64,000 nt of DNA from Mycteria americana (taxonomy: Eukaryota > Chordata > Aves > Ciconiiformes > Ciconiidae): positions 51,075,501 through 51,139,500 of the forward strand of contig NC_134370.1 of the NCBI RefSeq assembly GCF_035582795.1. The letters run 5' to 3'. Each line of letters opens with the position of its first letter. Within the stretch, counting starts at the first letter, position 1. Positions 32,782-64,000 of the stretch are shown here, piece by piece. Made by a program: the position numbers and the translations under genes. The notes below the pieces were generated by a model that had not been told where the DNA came from, did not search any database, and was given only the letters and a program-made list of their open reading frames with translations.

Positions 32782-33325
32782 TTAATCTATATATTGTGCC
32801 CATTTTTCTTTATCAAATTCCCTTGCGATCTTTAAGGCAGTGCTGTTAAGGGAAACAGATTGCATATTACAGATAATACTAACAATTACTCCCCTAGGTG
32901 GTGCCACTATCCCAGTATCTATAGCTTCAGAGTCCAACTCTTCAGGAAGAATTAGGAGGACGCTACTTGCCCCCACTGCACCACCTGTATGAGATGCATA
33001 GTGTCTCTGCTGTCTGCAACAGCCATATTGTTGTTTTTTCTCTACTACAGCCCAAGCCATTGCATATTTACCATCCCTGTCCCACGATACTTCCGTTTTT
33101 GGCACTGGGGTCCACATCATTGCGACTGTGTCTGGCTTGAGGTACCCAGGAAGAAGTTTGCCATTAGTGTTTTTAAATTGTCCAGCTTGATAACTGTATA
33201 ACAAGGCATTTCCAAATTTCAGAAGGTCGCCTACTGATGACAGAAAGCCACCACCAGCCCACTTGTAAGAGTTGTCCACATACGGTGCATTTACCAGCCG
33301 TCCCTTTTTGTTGTAAACATAACAC
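32782..33325 (-). CDS. LACTB: LACTB coding exon 6 (last)
   Basis: The 544-nt exon has 181 codons including TAA, after one base completing Arg346. It follows a TTCTAG acceptor. It carries W-A-G-G-G-F-L-S and the active-site H-T-G-G, then P-P-R-G-V-I-V-S and a C-terminal W-A-Q-Y-I-D that is not in the human protein as I recall it. Confidence 0.95.
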
Positions 33326-36300
33326 CTAGAATTCAAGAAAATTCAACTTGTCATTCTCAGATACTATGCACAACTATTTTAAGCTGCCCTACCTTAAAAG
33401 AGCATGAGAGCTTAAATGAGAACAAGCTAATACATGCTCAGTCTCATGAAATGGTAGGGTTTTTTAAAATATATTGTTCTTAAATATATTTCTTGCAGAA
33501 AAATCAACAGGAAATTCAGATGGGAAAACAAAAATTAAGGTTATTTCTTAGGTTAGAAGCTTAGTTTCAATAAAGGTACTAATCCTTCTACTTACTTTTA
33601 GGATATACTAAAAGTAAAGGCAATATACAAATAAAAGATGCGACAGAAATCTATAGATCAGCCAGCACATGACTTTTCTTAAATCCCTGTACTAGATTTA
33701 AAGTGTTTTAAGAAAGAGGAATCCTACAACTATGCCGTGATTATCAGACACTGAGCTGAAATTTCACAGGTGACTGCTCTGAGACAGTAGTTTCCATTTA
33801 TGCTTGATTTCCCCCCACTGCCCCATTACAGTTGCCATATACTACAACAACTGAATATTCTGGAACTACTAAGAAAAGTGAGAAGCATGAAAGAGTTTTG
33901 CAAAACCTGTCATTAAAATACAAATTAGAAACTACCAACCAGAATTGCAGAATGAACTATCAGGAACAACACAATAAGAGCGCAGACTGAATCATGCTTT
34001 TGAAAGAAACAGTCCAATCATGACTGGATTAATTTCATACAACGTATGAAAAGGAATGTTGAATACCTATATAATCTGATGAATTTCAACCTTTGGCCTT
34101 TAGACCACAAGAGGTCCACGACTTGGAGAGTTGTGAAAAGGAACTACAAAAAAAAAAAAAAAAAAAAAGGTGGGGAGGGGGGCAGGGCAAGCCTACTATC
34201 AAACAGTACAGAGATACATTCCCTATCTAGTCTGCACTTATATTGGAAAACTTTTAGGGAACTTCTGAAAGCCATAACACTGAAAATCAGAGGTTGAAGC
34301 AAAGGAAGAGACACAAATGGTCCAAGACTACCATCAGCTCTGCCAGTGACTTGACTATCTCTGTGTCCCTACAGCCAGTTTTTCGATCACAATAAAACCT
34401 GTTACAAGGATGCTGAAACGCTTGACTTACACCTCTAATAGATTCAGAACATGAATTTTTAAACATTTTCATGTCAGTGAAATATAGTATAACCAAACCA
34501 CTAAACAAACCACAACATGTCAATATGTTCTTGTTTGAGGCACCAAGCTATTTGTGGAAGCAAAACCATCACATTAGCACCTCAGTTTTGCTTAACAATA
34601 AGTAGCCCAGAAAAAGACCCCTAAACCAGCATCTGTCCCAATTCTTTCATCCCTACCATACTTCAGTTTATAAAAGGATTAATATATACACATATATTTA
34701 AAAGAATGTGACTGTACAAGCTTGCTAATTTATGAGAACATCACTAGCATGCAGATCTACAGCCAGAAGAGCCTCTGAAAATTTGCAAGCAAAACAAATA
34801 CCAGCACAAAGCACCTTAGAATACAGCAGTAAAGCTATCCCTAAAACATTACAAACTGCTTTGTGTGTTGTGTATGTACATACACTTTAAATATAGACTT
34901 ATATGTAAGTACTATAAACTTTGGATTCAACATGGTCATCCCCATTTTCATTCTTTGAGAGCATTTTAGAAGCCAAACTTTTAAAAAATTTGTGTCTCAT
35001 TTTCGTGAGACTTTTTCCATAACCTGCTTTTGTGATTCAGTTAGAAATTTTGGTGCAGGAGAAGAATTAACAGGTGAGTCAATAAATCAATTTCAGAGCC
35101 CAGACAGGTAGGTCAATAAAATAAGACTGGAGAGAAAGACAAGAAAATCTACCCTTATCCACTATACTGGAATGGATTATCCAGTTACATAAATTTCTCT
35201 GGAGGCTTTTTTGGTTTTTTTGTGTTTGTTTGGTTGGGGTTTTTTTAAGTTAAAAAGAAATCAATTGGTCAAGCATGTTCTGTGTTAAACAGAATTTTAA
35301 TTCTGGTTAAAATTGATACTACAATTTAATTTATGAAAACCTTGTGTTACTGTGAGACTAATAAAATTCCACAGAACTCTTAAAGAGTCAGTATATTAAG
35401 CAAACCAAGGTTAACTGTATATTCTAACATAATCTCCTAGTTACTCCTTTATTTTACTCTATTTACACTTACCTGCTTATTTGTACCCAAAATAAGTGCA
35501 AACTACAAAGTCACCCCTGCCACTCCCCCCCATATATACTCTTATAACAGGAAATACTTATTTCCTATGCTGTAATTTTACATGCTAATTACAGAACCAA
35601 TACCATAATGCTGACATAAAATCAGTTACATGACTAACTTTGACATAACATAAGCCACTTCATTTAAAAGCCTGGAAAAAAAAGAAAAAAAAATTTCACA
35701 CATTCTTAATTCAGTTGGCTTAATAAAGATAGAAAGAGCAACAATTGTTGTGGAAAAAAAGTTTCATCCTTGTTTACCTTGCTCTGTTATATATCATTGC
35801 TTCATTGTCATCTAGTACAGTCGATAGCATATCCAAATCACGAAACATTTTTAGCATATAATCTGTAAATTTTTGTCCTGAAACTCTCTCCACAACAGCG
35901 CTTAAGAGAGTAAAGCCATACGTTGAATACAAGAACTGACTACCTTGAAGAAACACAATGAGAAAGGGAGGGGGGGGGGAAGTTAGCCACATGATGCTTA
36001 AATGGAATCTGAAGGATAAAATTTAAGTAATCACATGTGCAAATAAAACTATATATAGCAATAAATAACCAATTAAAAGACTCCCCCTCCAGCCTCATTT
36101 TAATATGATGTGAATCACAAGCTTATGATACTGGGCCCCAGGAATTTCTATACTGCAGCAGACACAGATACTTGCTAAGTGCAGGTAGCTCCGAGAACAG
36201 CACTAAAAAATTTCCAGGCATCTGTGTGTATAGCCAGGTTTCATGCCAAGATGTGAAAACTGACATTTAATATCCTTTCCACAATATTTACCATACCAGT

Positions 36301-51221: not shown

Positions 51222-51285
51222 ATAATCTCTGCTTCCCCTCCACAGACAGAGACATAATCTCTGCTTCTCCTCCACAGACAGAGAC
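51222..51285. repeat. 32-bp tandem duplication
   Basis: Two adjacent 32-bp units beginning ATAATCTCTGCTTC differ at a single base (CCCC versus TCTCC context). This is probably a recent slippage duplication in the spacer. Confidence 0.85.
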
Positions 51286-54200
51286 ATATAGGCCTGTGTG
51301 CTTTTTATTTCAAGTTACAACAGTAAGTCTCAGCACAGAGCGCCTCCCATGGATTAATGACCAGTTTGGGTCCCTTGGGCTGCCTCTTGTATCCACAATC
51401 CTTCCCACCCACTTGTTAATATCCAGGAAATGCCTTGCACTCAGACATGGCTGCATGTGAATGTAATAAAAGCACATACACATTTGCTACATTTGCTAAC
51501 TGCTGAAAAGCAGCAAAAAATGGTGGTTTTGTCTTTTTTTTTTTTTAAGTGTCATGATTTCTTGGTTAAGGTAATTGATAATAAAGTCCTAGCATAGAGA
51601 AATTTAACCCAGATTCTGCTGGTGTGGCGAGAACCACTGAGAGAAAGGGGTTTTATTGATTTTTATGGGAAAAGCTCCTGCATATTGTACTTGGAGAGGT
51701 GACAAAGAATTTGCTGCTACCTGGACTTTGCCAGCCACCTTCCTCTGTGGCAGAGGAATGTGGTGGCTGCAGAACACAAGCAGAGGCTACAGGAGCAGGA
51801 CAAGGCATAACTACATGGTGGCATTTAGAGGGGGAGGATTCATTCTTCTGTAGATCACGTTCATGCTGTCTATACCCTCCTAACTGGCCTTTAGCCCCTG
51901 TGCACAATTCTATCTCACTGTTTCCCTCTTTGATGCTTTTTCACCTAGTTCATCTTCTAGATACATTTTTTTATTTCTGGACAGCCTGCACAAATTACAT
52001 CAACTCTTTAGCCTATTGTATAGTCTATGTGTGTATAATAAACAAATAAGGAAGTAGTACAGCAATCCAGATTAAGTGGAAAGAAGTCTGGCAGGCTCCT
52101 CCTTGCTAGCTACAGAAAACCAGGAAAGATTTTGAAGCATTTTCCCAGGCTATTTCTCCAACTAGTATTCTTGTCAAGAGAAACATGCAAACTATTGGTG
52201 GACCTGGAAAGAAACGCTCTATTTTTAAACTGGAAACTCACACAGATATGTTAATATCAATACCAATATGTCCTAAGCAAGTTAAAACAATTTACCAGAG
52301 CTTTGCAGTTGTACCTTCCTGATTATTCTTTCACACATTCTACTGTAGAGACACCAGACCTGCATCATTTTCCTCAGTGGCATGGACAACTATCACTAGG
52401 TGTTAGGCCTTTGCAGGTTTTATCCAAAGAAACACTGTTTGCCATGAGCTTTGGCTGAGACAGGTCACACAGACACTTCCTTGACATTTCTGTTTGAATC
52501 TCAGGGCAAAAAATGAAGACAACATCAATGAAAGGAATAATCCCGAGAAGCAGATCATGGTCAGGCTCTGGAATAGGAGGCATTCACAATACTTTGCAGG
52601 ATCATGGCCCCAAATATACTTCATCCCTTTATACCTATGATCCATAGATGCTTGCTGTACACAAATGAGAGAAATATTCCCACAACCATGCATGCCAGTA
52701 TGTTATGACTTGTGGTACTGTCAGCTGCAGCTACATCTGCAGGACTTCTTTTTTGGCTCTATTTTTTTAAATGAAACAGGTGCTGTCTATTCTTTATCCA
52801 GTCATTCCTCAAACCCGCAAAGAGATAGGAAGAAACCAGTGCTGAGGTGCCCTTAAAGGCCATAATACTCAAATCCAAAATACTGCGTAATGTCCTTTCA
52901 TTTCAGTGCATTATGAGTCAAGAAATAACAAATGGGAAGGAATAATTTTTTATGTGTCTGTAAGACTTTTGTCTGCTTCTGTTTCCCATTGTTTCTGCTC
53001 TCATATAAATTAACTAACCAGGATATCTAGATCGCTCACTAAGCTGCTGTCATTGTGAGGGGTATCCTGCATTTATGCAATTCTCAGCAACAGCTTGCAA
53101 ATTGGCAAGGCTATGACTTACAGAAAACTAGATAGGTTGGCAGCTGAAGCCACGAAGATTATGCAAACTTGTACAGCTTTTCCATACCTTGGAAAGAATA
53201 CAACACACACCGAAGAAAGTAAGTTACACGGCTTCCCTCTACTAAAAGGAACTATTCCTGTGTGCATTTAAAAAAAAAAAAATCCATTAAGATAAAACGC
53301 ATTATCCTTATTTTCTCTACTGCTTTGACCTTTTTGCTGCAATTCCCACTTAAATTTTCACTGATGGTCCTATTTTATTATTAAAAAACTCAGAAATTAA
53401 AAAAACCCCACCAAAATGAACACCTGAGGAAAAAATACTCTATTTTCCCATGTACTGAGCCATGTAAAAAGTATTTCCCCCCTTCTTTGTTTTTAAATGT
53501 TTTAGTTGGCTAATCACTTTCTTCTTTTGCTATCACTAACAGACATTACAGCAGTCATAGACAGCCCAGTGTAACAGATATTCCTACAATATTAACAGTG
53601 TAGCAAGGTTTGCCAACTTAACCCAGATTTTGAGTAGCATCAATGACAGCAGAAATTGGTTAACATGCATAATATGTTACAGATTCAGATTTCTCACTCA
53701 GGTGCTAGAGCTCTGAGAGGCAGTGCCCTATAGGTGCCGGCTACTGCTTTAGCCTTATTTCTTAAAGAAAAGTAACTTATATGTCATTCTTATCTCTGTC
53801 TCTCATCCCATTCAACGACTCTTGAACCGATTGGCTAGTTTTGACCACATAGAACTCTAAAAGGAAAATTACATTTCTACACGTTTTGTGAACCATTAAG
53901 ATAGAAAGAGCATGCCTATGAGCATCTTGATGCTCTGCAGCATGCCTTGCATATTATTAGACATCAGAGAAATCCCATGAGGAAGCAAGAGACAACACAA
54001 ATGTCTCGGTATCTGGAAAAAAACTCATTGCAAGTTTACAACCAACCATGAGACATGAATCTGCAAGAAGGCAGGTTTTGCTAGTTCTGGTGCTCTCAGA
54101 ACTACTCATTTCATTGAGAGAGGATAACTCACAAAACAACAAAGACAATTACATAGCACGGCTGCACAATAAGGTATATTTCAAACTGCCAAATGTGGTT

Positions 54201-57177: not shown

Positions 57178-57260
57178 TCACATGTTGTTTAACTCCAGTA
57201 AAGTTTGATCCAGCATCTGATGCATACTAAGGTTTTCTTCTTTGGCATGCGCCACTTTCT
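57178..57260 (-). CDS. TPM1: TPM1 exon 9d (smooth/non-muscle C-terminus)
   Basis: The 83-nt coding segment reads [14 protein letters not shown], then [13 protein letters not shown] and TGA (57178-57180). This matches the fibroblast and smooth-muscle end of vertebrate TPM1 as I recall it. It is the most 3' coding exon of the gene. Confidence 0.95.
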
Positions 57261-60200
57261 CTGTTGTGGGATTAGAAAATTAAAACATGAATAGCAGTTC
57301 TTTGGAGGCACTGATTCTCCGAACATGAAGGCATGCAATCATCATTTCTATTGGAGGGTTTAGAAAGTTAAGAAATGTGCATGCTCATAAATACCGATGT
57401 CCCCAGACAACACAACTAGAGAGAATTCCAAATTAATAAAACAAATGGCAAGTAATGCAAGTTTAGAACTGTTTACAGATGCATTTGTTAAGAAAATGCA
57501 CTGCCAACAGAGACGCAATTCTTGCACGTTCTGGAAGTTCTTTGCTTATAGGAATGTGGAATGGTGAATGCTTTTTTTTTTTTTAAAGCAGGGCAATAAA
57601 GAAAACATTTAAGTTCTTTGCAGATCCATACTTTAAGTTTCATGTAATTCAGAACTTGCAAAGAACAAAAAAGTTACAACCAATCTCTTCTTCAGTGAAG
57701 TGACCTTTAAGAAAAATATTTCTTCTAGAAAATAAATAAAATTGAAGTTAGTAGCTTTATGTTGCATGCACACTTTTATAGGACAGTCATTTAACACACT
57801 TACATGATACAATAAATGAGCACAATGTTCTAGAGCTGCATCCTACCAGAATCCAGTAATAGTAACTTCATACTAATGCAAGCATACCTTTAAACTGACC
57901 AGGTATTTTCAGATGGAGCTCCCAGTCCTAGCTTCATTATTTGTTTTTTTTAAAGCCAAATACAAGCCCAATTCACAGTAATGCAAAATTAATGCCTTAA
58001 TTCTCCAGATTACAAAACAGCTATAAGTATCCTTTATGTTGGTTTTGAAATACAGAAATACAAATCCCAGTGAACATTTTTCTCTCATCCATATTCTAGT
58101 AAAAATCTCAGGGCCAATTCATGATATCAGGTAAACTGAGTATCTCTCTACAAGGCAGGCTGTTACTTTTTGGATACTGTTACCTTTTGGATACTGTTAG
58201 CTAAATGCTATAGCTGTTTACTGAAGAGGAAAGGAGCTATTGCATAGCCAAAGAGCTTACTGCTCCTCCAAAGTACGTGTGCATACAGATAATGAAAAGC
58301 CTCATCCAGAAGAAGCATTTTCATATGTTTCCAACAGAAACTGAGAATTTCATCCATTAATCAACAGCCTGAAAAAATCAATTTCTAGGTTTCTTGCTTA
58401 TTTCTACATTTACTGATTCATTCTAAAGGAAATTTGGAAGAAGCAGTTTTTAAACAAGTTTAAAATATAGTCACACTAAAGTTTAATCCTCATTCAATGC
58501 CAGCTTTAGTTCATTAGTTAGGCGACTGTTTTGCTCAAGTTGCTGGTAGAGTTGGTCTGTACAGGCAGCAAGCAGGTTAGAAGGGAAAAAAGAGGCAGAA
58601 TGAAGACAGATTAGACAGAGAAAACAGTTAGGTAAGAGTTAATAAAGAAACTGGTCACACCACAGACAGTTCAGTAACATACAGAGAAACATTTTACCTG
58701 TGTTTCTAGAACTCTAATAATAAATAGCTACTCCAAGGAACGGCTATTACAACCTATGAAGAACTGGCTAAGACACCTGTTGTGGAGAACAGCTGTGAGA
58801 CAGGTAAGTGGGAATAGAAATGGAAGAACTGCAGCTATATTCCTAGAACCAACAAGTCCTGCTTTAACCTTTACATACAATGTGTGGGAGATTTGTTTTG
58901 AGTGCCATTTTTCCTTGTAAACTATTCAAGATGTGGTGGAACCTCATCTGCCAGTGGAGGGAAAGCAACTGCATCACAACCAGGGTAAGTAATGGCAGAG
59001 AGATGCTGGTAGCCAACTACCACTAGGTCTGACTCAGCCCGTACTTCTGGGGATTTCCTGGGGAATCTGACAGCTGAAATCGTATTTTTGGTAGGGAAAC
59101 ATACTTCTGTTACTGGTATCAACACACTTCGATACCTTTAAATTGTCCAGTTGTACTTCATAAGAAAACAAACCCAAACATTTGGTGAAAATGAAATGGA
59201 AGCATGAAAACCCGTGTTGCTCAAATACAGCAAATGGAGAGGATGGTTCACAGTCATGGTCAAAGAGAACAGCCACAGATATGTTGTGACAGTGCATTTA
59301 GTGGGAGTTGTTCTGCAGAGTGAAAGACCATTCCGTGATGGTTTTTTACTGTCTTGTTTTCTCAAACTGTCCGTATTCTTTGCAATAGTCTAGATTCAAA
59401 CTGCACTCCTGACCTCTTGATCCCAGATTATTCTCCTACAGGAAGTGACTGTTTCTGATTCTTTTCCACAAGCTTCCTAACAGCTTCCACAGAAATCCTC
59501 ATCCCCTGCAGGCTCTGGACACAGCAATGGCAAAGCTGTGCAGTGAGCTCATCTGTAGTACACACTTGTGCGGTGAGCAGCAACTCCTCACAGCTCCTTT
59601 CCCAGCCCAAACTCCAACAGCCAGTTCAGTAAAACCAGGGCACACTTCAGAACTGATCCTGGACTGGTAACAACTGGGTCTTGTCTCTCTTACCAGAGTA
59701 ATGTCACACATAAGTGGAAAAAAACATCAAAACCTCAGAGTAACTAAAATTTCACTTTGTTTTGCAAAGTGTAGTTAGTTGTTATTCAAACATGACAACA
59801 TAATTGGAACTAAGAACTTGATGCTTACCTTCATCACAGAAAACTCCTCTCTTTAATTGAGGCAGAGATTTACAGTATTTCTCAACATCCAAAATGAGAC
59901 TAAAACACCCAGGTAAAGCATGGAAAGCATTTACCAAGTGTACAGTCAGCCCTTGATTACCCACAGGCAGTCTGTCTAGGTTGCGATTTATCACAGAGGT
60001 AGAGCCAAGGGCTGGCTCTGTAGGCAGCCACCTTGGGCCAAGCAGGGAGTTCAAGCTCTGGCGCAGATCCAGTGAGGCTCAGCGTCAGCACAGCAGAGAG
60101 CCCAGCCAAATGAGACATCAGAGCCAGCCTTGCACTCCTGTCAACAAGCCTCATGTACACAACTAGCTACATGTGGCCAGACCTTGTGGGATGTACAACA

Positions 60201-63200
60201 TAATGCACAGTTCCAACAGTGATAAGAGTGCTGAAATACACTGCAGTGAGGAACCACAACAGCTCCACGGAGTCAAGATCAGTGCAGCAGGGCCAGCTAG
60301 GAATTCTGTACACAGCTACCTGGGTATCTGCATTGCCCATTTCCAGTACTCTGTCCAGCAATTCATCACCCTACAGTGCAGAGAGCTGAGTATGTGTGTT
60401 TGAAGGAAAAGGGAAGATTTAAATACTGATGTTCAAAATTACTGTGTTAAAAATTACCAGGTTGCTACACTGGATTTTGCTTTTTTTACTTCTCTTAAGA
60501 AACAACAGTATTGCAAGGAATTGAGGGGAAAAACAACACTGCTGACACAATAAACCAAAACACACAATAGATTAAGGGGTTGGAGTTGCTGTAGCGTAAG
60601 TTACTCTGGCTCATCTGACAAGTGACAGCTGGCCACATTCCCCATAACCCTTGCATTTGTGAAGTTAACCATGTTAGCTTCAGCCATCTTACAAATGCTC
60701 ATCCCATTATATTTGGTTAACCTTCACACTAAACTTTTTACTTTTCAGTTGCAATACACACAGTGTATAAACCCACTTACTGTATCTCAAGTGATGAGTA
60801 GTAAGTTATTGAACTTTATTATCTGGACTAGCTGTGACTGCTGACACATATCCTGTACTTGGGCTTCTCCCCATAGCCAGTAACATTAGGACATGTGTCA
60901 CAGGATAAAAAACTGGGATGAGACAAAGTTATCTGAGGATAGCAAGGGGGAAGACAATGCATCCATTTGCAAGCCTTATTTGGAAAACAGGTTTTGGGGA
61001 GGGGAGGAAATCTAGCCTAGACTGCACTGCTGAATAAACTTGAAGTTGAACAAGAAAGCCACATTTACATTACTCTACAAGCTAAAAACTATGCTATGAT
61101 GAGTTTATTTAGCTGTGGTGACTTAGGAACTTAGCAATATATACAGTGACAGGCATAATCAGAAATTAATCCAGTTTAAACTGATTCACTTTAATGTGAA
61201 CTGGAAAATAACTTTTTTCATTGTGAAGAAAATGAAGTTAAAATAATGCAATAAACTCTCTAATTGCAAATAACAGTATAAAAAAAGCAACATGTCAGTA
61301 TTTAATGCTTCATCCTTAATTCGGCACTGCCAAATCAGCTGAAAGCCAATGTTTAGGCTTTCAAACCTGAAATCTGTATGTTCCACTTTGCAGCAGCAGA
61401 AGTTAATTATTAGTGTAATGATGAGAGTTTTCCTTCTCCAGTTCTGAAACATTTCTCATGAGTCTGCAATTCAAACTCACAAGTCTGAGCTAAGCACGAG
61501 AGTGGAAAGCTACTGAAATCTCCCTGCTCAGCTTCCAATCCTATCATGCCACTCAAGAGAAGTATATTGTGTTAAAAAAAAAGTTAGCAAGCAACATCTT
61601 TGCTGAGTAAACGAGGTGTGAAAGAGGGGAAAACTTTTTTGCAAGACATTTGGAGGACTATTTTTGGGTGAAAAAAAGAATTTAAAGTTTTTGATAATGT
61701 CCTTTTAAATCTGTCTCAAATATTTAAGTTAACGAACAAACACATTTATATAAAGACAGGAAGTCTTCAGCATCAAGCTACGAGAAAATTTCAGACTTTA
61801 AAGTGAAAAATCTGGTGTCAAGGACTTAACTGCTCTCTCAGCCATGCTCCCACGACCAAGTGACCCCAAGGAAGTAGTGTCCTTGCAGATTTTGGCCTAA
61901 CAATAACAACTGAAAAAATTCCCATTACATCTATTTGTCATTTTAACTGCATCAGATTGACAAAGACTAAGATCATAACTGGCCAGTTTTGACCTCAAAA
62001 TACCAAGAGCAGTATTCTCATCCCCATAGACCGCTATCACTGACTTTGCATTGTCAACATTAATGCAAAAGTGTTTGCAGAAAAAAAAAATGGAAACACC
62101 AAAAAATTTTAAATTCCTAATGGCAAAAAAAGCAATTTTTATTAATAACTGAAATAGTTATTTAAATAAATAAAAGGCAAGGGAATAGCAAAAGGCATAC
62201 AGCTGGGATGTTTATTTTACATTGAGAGATGTAGAGTTTCTGTACAGCAGAGCACAAACAGAGCATGTTCTGAGACAGGTGCTAGAGGAATAGAGTCAAC
62301 TAAGCTAGAAGACAGGACAATGAACCCATGAAACATCCAAAGCTTGGAAAGATGTTTTATCCAACCCAGTGAAGATGTCTCTGGAGAAGTGAGGCAAAGA
62401 AAATTATCTGCATGAAAAGAAAAAGTGAGATAAGGTAGGAAATAAAAAAGGTGCAGTAAAGCTTTCCAAAAAAGCAGCAACAGCACAGAAGAGCCCAGCA
62501 TGCCAAGACAACTACTAGAGAAACACCACACCATGCTGGGACTGGAATGCTACAGTAATGTCCTCATATACCGGTAGGGTCCATTTTAAAGTCTGTTTTC
62601 CATTTAGAAATATCCCAAATTGAAGAAATACTGTAATCTCTCTACACAGAGGAGGAAAATCTACTTGCTTGATAAGCCACTGAGCAAAAGCATATGTTGG
62701 GGAAGTGGGGGGAATAAAAAAAAATAAATAAAAATCAAAGCAGACAACATTAGACCCCTACTAAAAAGTTGGGAGAGAGAGAAGTAATGAATAGATATAC
62801 GGATGAAAAAAGGCAAAGAACAAAACATTTTAAAAATGGGTGCATGCAAAACACATTTCAAGCGCTGAGCAAAGCTTATGCCTTGCTGAAAGCATGCTAG
62901 CTTCCAAAAAGAAATGCTGGGACTAAACATCACACCTCACAAGCGCCTGAGAGCCACAACTCTTCCTCTTTCCCATGCCAACTGTACAGGGTTCACGCAA
63001 GTGAAAGGTACGAGCATGGGAAGCTGGATTTAGCATAGCTGACCTCTTGTTCAGAGTTTTAAGTTGATGAAAGAAGAGTCAGTTTGTATCAAAACCTGCA
63101 CAGACTAGTCACTCCTTACAATTGATCACTTTCCTGCTTTCCTGCCACCTAATACACTCTTTATTTTTCTCCTTATGACTAAAGTTGATATTACCACATT

Positions 63201-63951
63201 TTTGGTATATGCAAATTAAATTACTACCACCATCCACAAAATATGCAGAAGCAACCTACAATTCAATTGTTACTTTTATGGGTTTAAATGACAAAGTATT
63301 TTAAATCAATTTCCACACCTGTAATTTAGTGATAATAGATTAAATTTTCAGAGCACTTAAGGAAATTTAGATGAACACTTTCCGCTGTCATTAATAGAGA
63401 ATACAGCTAAATGTAAATTTCTTTGAAACTTTTGTAGGAACTTTACCAGAGAAAAACTGTGACAGCAGAAGAATACACTCTGAATGCAACGTGTACCGAG
63501 GCAATTTTCTTTGGTAAACTGAATATGATGGGCCTGGCAGGCAATGTTTGAACAGAGGTGAACTGAAAGGATAAATGCAGAGCTACAAACAAAGGGCAAC
63601 CACAAGACACAAGGATTGCAGATACAGAATGAAAGAGTAAACACAAGCTTATTAGGCAGCTTACAAAATCACCATGAGTATTTACCAGGCTAGGCACAAC
63701 ACTCACCCACACTCTGCCACGGTAAAGAAATTGTTCATGGTATTTTGTACACCTAGTCTCGCTAAAGGAATGCGTCTCCCGCTACAGAGGGAGTATAATT
63801 TCACAAGGCCGGAACCGCGCAATCAATGAGGGCAGGGAAGCAGGTGCAGGCACAAGCTGGGAAGACATTTACATGGAAGTCATATCGTTGAGAGCGTGGT
63901 CCAGCTCCTCACTGATGGCTTTGTACTTCAGTTTCTGAGCATATAGCTCAT
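57178..63951 (-). CDS. TPM1: TPM1 alternative C-terminal exons (partial gene, 5' part beyond right edge)
   Basis: Four 3'-end elements of alpha-tropomyosin lie on the minus strand in transcript order: 9a (63951), 9b (60932), 9c (58556) and 9d (57260). Tropomyosin is a two-chain coiled coil lying along actin filaments. The last exon sets head-to-tail overlap and troponin binding, and differs between striated muscle, brain and smooth/non-muscle cells. The three coding alternatives start in the same phase: each needs a G from exon 8 to form Asp or Glu. This agrees with mutually exclusive use after one shared exon 8 outside the window. The elements must not be joined to each other, apart from 9a to 9b. 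Neighbouring LACTB, downstream on the same strand, matches the human gene order. Confidence 0.93.
57261..58482 (-). other. TPM1: Region between TPM1 9c stop and 9d acceptor (9c 3' UTR and intron)
   Basis: About 1.2 kb of AT-rich sequence. It must hold any 9c 3' UTR and the acceptor region of 9d (CCACAACAG). A 17-bp tandem duplication is at 58160-58193. Confidence 0.6.
58160..58193. repeat. 17-bp tandem duplication between TPM1 exons 9d and 9c
   Basis: CTGTTACTTTTTGGATA is followed by CTGTTACCTTTTGGATA, with 16 of 17 identical. It is about 290 bp downstream of the exon 9c stop in transcript orientation. Confidence 0.8.
58483..58556 (-). CDS. TPM1: TPM1 exon 9c (brain-type C-terminus)
   Basis: The 74-nt coding segment reads [13 protein letters not shown], then [11 protein letters not shown] and TAA (58483-58485). 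It matches the brain-specific end of mammalian TPM1, with Ser in place of one Arg after Q-N. The phase (needs G from exon 8) is the same as for 9a and 9d. No splice donor directly follows, so it is terminal. I did not find a clear AATAAA before exon 9d, so how its 3' end forms is open. Confidence 0.92.
58557..60796 (-). other. TPM1: TPM1 intron between 9b and 9c
   Basis: About 2.2 kb with no recognised exon. Open frames here are short and unrelated to tropomyosin. The region ends in a TGCCTGTACAG acceptor for 9c. Confidence 0.6.
60797..60932 (-). other. TPM1: TPM1 exon 9b (striated 3'-UTR exon, predicted)
   Basis: On the minus strand a pyrimidine-rich tract (GTCTTCCCCCTTGCTATCC) leads to TCAG, then ATAACTTTG. 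Joined to the AT of exon 9a, this gives ATA-TAA, that is Ile and stop, the standard striated end. The exon start resembles human ATAAGTTTC followed by CT-rich sequence, as I recall it. AATAAA lies 112 nt later (60815-60820), followed by a GT-rich element (TGTGTGTATTG, near 60755-60770). The short UTR exon fits the known gene structure. The right end is approximate. Confidence 0.75.
60815..60820 (-). terminator. TPM1: Poly(A) signal for TPM1 9a-9b transcripts
   Basis: AATAAA on the minus strand lies inside the predicted 9b exon, with a GT-rich stretch 45-60 nt downstream as expected for CSTF binding. Confidence 0.6.
60933..63159 (-). other. TPM1: TPM1 intron between 9a and 9b
   Basis: AT-rich sequence with no recognised coding exon. 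It ends, in transcript direction, with a strong pyrimidine tract before the 9b acceptor. Confidence 0.6.
63160..63872 (-). other. TPM1: Candidate exon 9a read-through 3' UTR (9a') with poly(A) signal at its end
   Basis: If exon 9a acts as a terminal exon, its UTR would begin at the in-frame TAA (63869-63871). The first AATAAA I see on the minus strand is at 63160-63165, about 0.7 kb on; others occur further, for example at 62211-62216. Xenopus TPM1 is known to use a composite 9A9' exon in this way. Use in this species is inferred. Confidence 0.4.
63873..63951 (-). CDS. TPM1: TPM1 exon 9a (striated-muscle C-terminus)
   Basis: After a TTAG acceptor the exon reads [14 protein letters not shown], then [12 protein letters not shown] and two bases (AT) before GTAAAT. 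This is the striated-muscle tail that binds troponin T. If the GTAAAT donor is used, the next exon completes the Ile codon. If it is not used, the same bases read ATG-TAA, and the protein ends Ser-Met with a stop at 63869-63871. Outside the exon, 49 bp of upstream intron are visible, including a perfect 7-bp inverted repeat next to the acceptor. Confidence 0.95.
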
Positions 63952-64000
63952 CTAACATTCCCCCAAGGGAATGCAGAGGTGTGCAAGGAAATGGAGCGTG

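Follow-up and report, generated by a model that had tools for sequence, protein, structure and literature searches.

Exon 9b as the probable partner of exon 9a at the 3' end of the TPM1 gene of Mycteria americana

Introduction

Xenopus alpha-tropomyosin reportedly possesses a composite internal/3'-terminal exon, a finding attributed to Hamon et al. in 2004. The title of that work, which names this exon, is cited in an excerpt of PMC10035508, and none of the literature matches listed described it beyond this reference title, which is not proof of absence. In human, two TPM1 isoforms that include both exons 9a and 9b end their coding sequence in 9a and draw their stop codon and 3' UTR from 9b (PMC4480939, excerpt). 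Transcripts ending in 9a have been mentioned in rat heart (PMC8419188, excerpt) and in human liver (PMC6698738, excerpt) and, together with the known Xenopus exon, they make the idea of a composite 9a plausible. More generally, composite terminal exons represented 1648 of the 2675 intronic-polyadenylation isoforms assembled in PMC5928244 (excerpt), so that this class is a common one. With respect to regulation, excerpted literature indicates that PTBP1 binds near 9b and that PTBP depletion leads to more 9b-containing transcripts. In this work, the 3' end of TPM1 in Mycteria americana was compared with these systems.

Materials and Methods

The window, that is, the whole 64-kb stretch of DNA analysed, sits on a 71.7-Mb contig of a genome of 1.348 Gb in 279 contigs. 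Splice sites were scored with splice-site matrices, in TPM1 exons 1a, 2b, 3, 4, 5, 6b, 7, 8 and 9a (2a and 6a being left out), and acceptors were ranked within a set of 426 AGs from 63800 to 57000. The start of human 9b was represented by a 26-mer, obtained by joining two human oligonucleotides on their shared G, the continuation being inferred: the 9a(-) oligonucleotide of PMC4480939 (excerpt), which crosses the 9a/9b junction (...CTTCCAT/ATAAG, the slash marking the junction here and below), and a 3' UTR primer of PMC7641708 (excerpt), GTTTCTTTGCTTCACTTCTCCC. Motif enrichment was evaluated in 30 motif-region tests against mononucleotide shuffles. The rival readings weighed below are not all mutually exclusive, and the odds that we attach to them do not sum to one.

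Results

The 3' part of TPM1 was found on the minus strand of the window, in the exon order 9a-9b-9c-9d, 9c and 9d being read by eye and their names presumed (Table 1). Exon 9a matched the Pfam Tropomyosin family under the curated cut-off (E 0.0097, 15.8 bits, cut-off 38.6), and the 27-residue peptide of 9d had no Pfam match. Of LACTB, RPS27L and RAB8B, which we take to be the neighbours of TPM1 in human, the last two had tblastn matches in the window and LACTB a putative exon; their close spacing may point to a sauropsid. Across these 64 kb, Rfam gave nothing at gathering score. Degenerate patterns of 9a, 9b and 9d in viral contigs, and of 9a and 9b in a collection of genome contigs, gave 0 matches each, as expected since this is a vertebrate gene, while no other copy of the region 57000-64200 was found in the 92 kb examined (blastn, E up to 1e-3).

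Table 1. Features at the 3' end of TPM1 and in its neighbourhood, in window positions.
Feature	Positions	Strand	Basis
AG-free zone upstream of 9a, 225 nt, in-window part (runs on to ~64178)	64000..63954	minus	AG-AG gap scan
TPM1 exon 9a (striated C-terminus DELYAQ...MTS + AT), 79 nt	63951..63873	minus	translation
Exon 9a donor GTAAAT; unspliced, ATG-TAA (Met-stop)	63872..63867	minus	5.8 bits
Composite extension 9' (putative), in case 9a is terminal; hexamers AATAAA 63165-63160, CATAAA 63280	63872..63140	minus	hexamers, downstream composition
Exon 9b (Ile-stop + 3' UTR), probably orthologous to 9b of human TPM1; 3' end estimated from AATAAA	62407..62190	minus	human oligo match, acceptor rank
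Candidate exon with ATAA, a good acceptor and AATAAA at 60820; possible extra terminal exon or decoy	60932..60800	minus	acceptor, hexamer
Exon presumed to be 9c, brain type	58556..58483	minus	read by eye; acceptor 6.5 bits
Exon presumed to be 9d, coding part	57260..57178	minus	read by eye; acceptor 3.3 bits
Beta-lactamase-like exon, taken for LACTB	32782-33336		PF00144, E 2.8e-05, 23.9 bits, under cut-off 27
RPS27L	matches between 25106 and 28816	plus	tblastn, human protein
RAB8B exon 1	16881		tblastn, human protein

Exon 9a, preceded by GTTAG, ends in TCC-AT and is followed by GTAAAT, and the same bases as in the initial annotation were thus recovered on the minus strand. That annotation had proposed that reading through the donor gives Ser-Met-stop and that splicing to an acceptor at 60932 gives Ser-Ile-stop. 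Both proposals were exact by translation: with G as the last base of exon 8, unspliced 9a yielded ...MTSM-stop, and its junction with 60932 (CCTCAG/ATAACTTT) yielded ...MTSI-stop. The Met reading is nevertheless automatic, because AT at an exon end always reads ATG-TAA when a GTAA donor follows and is left unspliced, and the Met/Ile dual reading is therefore no evidence of design. An in-frame stop directly past the unused donor, as in a composite exon, is indeed present (ATG-TAA), yet it is expected from any AT/GTAA junction; in the donor matrix used, A accounts for 0.52 at position +3 and 0.71 at position +4, jointly about 37%. Among the literature matches listed, the one for a protein end in ...DMTSM was unrelated.

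As regards the partner of 9a, exon 9b most likely lies at 62407 and not, as assigned earlier, at 60932. The exon start at 62407 reads ATAATTTTCTTTGCCTCACTTCTCC, with a long pyrimidine tract before the AG, and this acceptor (TTTTCTTTTCATGCAG/ATAATTTTC) also gives ...MTSI-stop with 9a, the AT that ends 9a and the ATAA that opens 9b completing the Ile-stop (62407 begins ATAATTTT). It scored 11.0 bits and ranked third of the 426 AGs, against 8.4 bits and tenth rank for 60932. The two acceptors ranked above it, 58220 and 59312, both lie farther downstream, and 62407 is the top-scoring acceptor in the interval from 9a to 9b. It is nearer to 9a than 60932 by 1.5 kb, it has an AATAAA downstream (62216-62211), and its AG-free zone is 83% pyrimidine, with yTnAy motifs at -24, -36 and -50. 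Similarity to the human exon points the same way. The human 26-mer aligned with 62407-62383 with 23 identical bases out of 25 (score 21), its best and unique match within 63872-57000, whereas the exon at 60932 scored 9; none of 200 block shuffles reached this score, the shuffle maximum being 15. The exon at 62407 is therefore probably orthologous to human 9b. Two additional segments of human 9b also aligned within it, at 62251-62238 and at 62225-62209, these positions being their joint-best or best matches; they lie in the correct order and include the AATAAA, although singly they are non-significant (124 and 23 of 200 shuffles, respectively, reached their scores). A segment S2 of human 9b (PMC9889151, excerpt) was unmatched in the 62407 exon, with a score of 6, its best match lying elsewhere at chance level. 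Given its lower acceptor score and its unlikeness to human 9b, 60932 was rejected as 9b and as the main partner of 9a. From the interpretation initially proposed, the Met-stop and Ile-stop readings are thus retained, and the position of 9b most likely is not.

Compared with mammalian 9a-9b (TPM1 alpha), the locus is alike in the coding end of 9a, in the AT/ATAA junction, in the 9b start described above, in the presence of AATAAA near the end of 9b and in the order of the four exons. It is unlike it in its 9b UTR, which has diverged past the start, and in the one human oligonucleotide segment that is missing. We consider it very probable that the locus shows the conventional TPM1 3' end of a vertebrate, and probably of an amniote, its exons being arranged 9a-9b-9c-9d and 9a being internal and joined to 62407. 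In striated muscle, 9a would thus be spliced from its donor (63872) to the 62407 acceptor; the junction would complete the stop codon (AT/A-TAA, that is, Ile284-stop) and the message would end past the AATAAA at 62216. Smooth-muscle and non-muscle messages would take 9d instead, and Met-stop would arise only when the 9a donor is unused. The tissue use and 3' ends given here for the 9a-9d messages are those expected from other species. As a counterpoint to this conventional 3' end, 60932 has a respectable acceptor and an AATAAA of its own.

The splice sites of 9a were weak. Its acceptor, at -4.8 bits, was the weakest of the internal TPM1 exons scored (1.3 to 10.7 for the seven others), and its donor, at 5.8 bits, was the second lowest of nine TPM1 donors, that of exon 1a being lower at 4.1. 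From 63940 to 62420, the 9a donor ranked tenth of 105 GTs, nine of them scoring higher, and within 120 nt downstream no alternative donor exceeded 2.8 bits. Such weakness of both acceptor and donor would permit read-through. Upstream of 9a, the AG-free zone of 225 nt was the longest of 1,425 AG-AG gaps on the minus strand between 56000 and 77000; it contains CTAAT at -163, followed by a T-rich tract. A zone of this length suggests a distant branch point, a signature for which exon 3 of rat alpha-tropomyosin served as the model (PMC1431707, excerpt). Similar zones precede exon 2b (149 nt, CTAAC at -145) and exon 6b (121 nt). The rat exon 3 of that model presumably corresponds to exon 2b in the present numbering. 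The distant-branch-point signature would fit a regulated, muscle-restricted inclusion of 9a.

As for possible regulators, PTB-type motifs showed no enrichment near 9b over mononucleotide shuffles and, in the 49 in-window bases upstream of 9a, numbered 0 versus 0.9 expected. In the 9a-9b intron, GCATG stood out against mononucleotide shuffles, with a weaker excess of YGCY (26 versus 18.3 expected, reached in 6 of 200 shuffles). TGTGT/TGTTTG was in excess in the 9b-9c intron (16 versus 7.6 expected, 1 of 200 shuffles).

Discussion

How the Met-stop of 9a might be used, if at all, depends on the fate of messages in which its donor is not recognised. According to a first reading, whose chances we place slightly below even, Met-stop would occur only in noise or nuclear transcripts that retain the intron and extend as far as the poly(A) site of 9b (62216), and 9a would be no composite terminal exon. 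In line with this, the two signals of 9b, 62216 and 62143, are T-rich downstream (0.53 and 0.58) and have two TGTA motifs each upstream, unlike the signal at 63165, and intron sequence near 9a is retained in human data (PMC6698738, excerpt). The presence of a canonical AATAAA at 63165 speaks against intron retention as the only source of Met-stop. This hexamer is the sole AATAAA/ATTAAA from 63872 to 62408, and it is compatible with the 3' end near 63140 put forward in the initial annotation.

A second reading, which we regard as rather more doubtful, is that 9a can also end the message as a composite 3'-terminal exon, embryonic muscle being one possible setting, read-through and intronic polyadenylation then producing Met284 while the spliced form uses 62407. 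It is compatible with the conventional 3' end proposed above and not exclusive of it. In its favour, the intron offers the AATAAA at 63165 as well as a CATAAA at 63280 that has GT-rich sequence downstream (best 20-base fraction 0.85), and the acceptor and donor of 9a are weak relative to those of the other TPM1 exons. Precedents are the composite exon known for Xenopus alpha-tropomyosin and a minor 9a-ending form in human liver (PMC6698738, excerpt). However, the GT content downstream of 63165 is that of the background (best 20-base fraction 0.65, median 0.65); 62216 has an equal value, and this measure therefore cannot separate the two signals. The sequence downstream of 63165 is moreover T-poor (0.22 versus 0.53 at 62216), and no TGTA occurs within the 80 bases upstream of it, against two at 62216. 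At the protein level, with the 9a peptide as the query, Ile was the last residue in all 5 alignments listed of the 18 distinct PDB sequences matched.

Conservation of the composite arrangement in Mycteria americana is thus a candidate reading with little positive evidence. The likeness to the Xenopus exon lies in the fact that read-through of 9a would terminate the protein immediately and bring its own UTR; by contrast, terminal use is putative here and the poly(A) signal of the 9a-9b intron is unremarkable. Likewise, the combination of a donor that goes unrecognised and a poly(A) site further on in the intron would be shared with the composite terminal exons of intronic polyadenylation (PMC5928244, excerpt), from which the present case would differ in that it changes one residue, with no truncation.

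The acceptor at 60932 may also open an additional terminal exon used as an alternative, in effect a second 9b, in which case striated messages would have two or three 3' UTRs; we find this credible, but unlikely. Among the 426 AGs, one base and a stop follow 23, and an Ile-stop would result for 19. A strong acceptor (score of at least 8.4, a threshold equal to 60932's own score), an Ile-stop and an AATAAA 40-240 bases on were combined at only two of the window's 8,826 AGs, both strands included, namely 62407 and 60932, so that the latter is no trivial chance match, although the threshold was self-set and the site was searched for. From the densities of strong acceptors and of AATAAA and the rate of Ile-stop, about 0.04 such sites would be expected by chance in the 3.6 kb from 9b to 9c, a small figure, but one that follows a post hoc search. 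GT-rich sequence does occur about 40-65 bases past the AATAAA of this exon, with a best 20-base fraction of 0.75, equal to the 75% point of the background. On the other side, the AG-free zone of 60932 holds no yTnAy branch motif, as is also the case for exons 4 and 8. The exon does not resemble 9b, 318 of 500 shuffles reaching its score, and it was rejected as a copy of 9b. Finally, the rat 3' exons named in the excerpt of PMC8419188 are 9a, 9b, 9c and 9d, with no additional one.

A three-way striated 3' end under distant-branch-point control of 9a, with 9a read-through (Met284), 9a-62407 (Ile284) and 9a-60932 (Ile284), which would provide three UTRs and two proteins that differ by one residue within the head-to-tail overlap, appears very improbable.

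On present evidence, this locus is an ordinary 3' end of TPM1, in which composite use of 9a is possible. The corrected exon assignment makes 63873-62407 the junction to examine first in read mapping. Were 9a read-through to be demonstrated in this species, the composite exon of Xenopus would seem to be an ancient feature of tetrapods, and splicing would control the last residue of tropomyosin, which lies in the end-to-end overlap.

Sequence Features Around TPM1 Exon 9a

Upstream of exon 9a, which encodes the striated C-terminus of TPM1, the 225-nt AG-free zone was the longest among 1,425 AG-AG gaps on the same strand between 56000 and 77000. With CTAAT at -163 in this zone, a distant branch point is probable for exon 9a. 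The same AG-free-zone pattern was present at exons 2b and 6b.

Downstream, the 9a-9b intron held five GCATG motifs of the RBFOX type vs. 0.9 expected (0/200 mononucleotide shuffles), an enrichment drawn from 30 motif-region tests, all evaluated against such shuffles. Further 3', the ATTAAA hexamer at 58487 contains the stop codon of exon 9c (GGATTAAAC).

Features located around TPM1 exon 9a and between TPM1 and the LACTB-like exon
Feature	Position	Strand	Location
GCATG (n = 5)	62978, 62897, 62847, 62536, 62503	-	9a-9b intron
AG-free zone, 225 nt	63954-64000 in the window, on to ~64178 in L002 (DNA reaching beyond the window end)	-	before exon 9a
Tandem repeat (32-base unit, 2.1 copies, 97% matches)	51222-51288		between the LACTB-like exon and TPM1

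Were 9a skipped and exon 8 joined to 9b, 63 codons would be read without a stop (62407-62217). In humans, messages with 9b but without 9a are reported to encode 287-residue proteins (PMC4480939).
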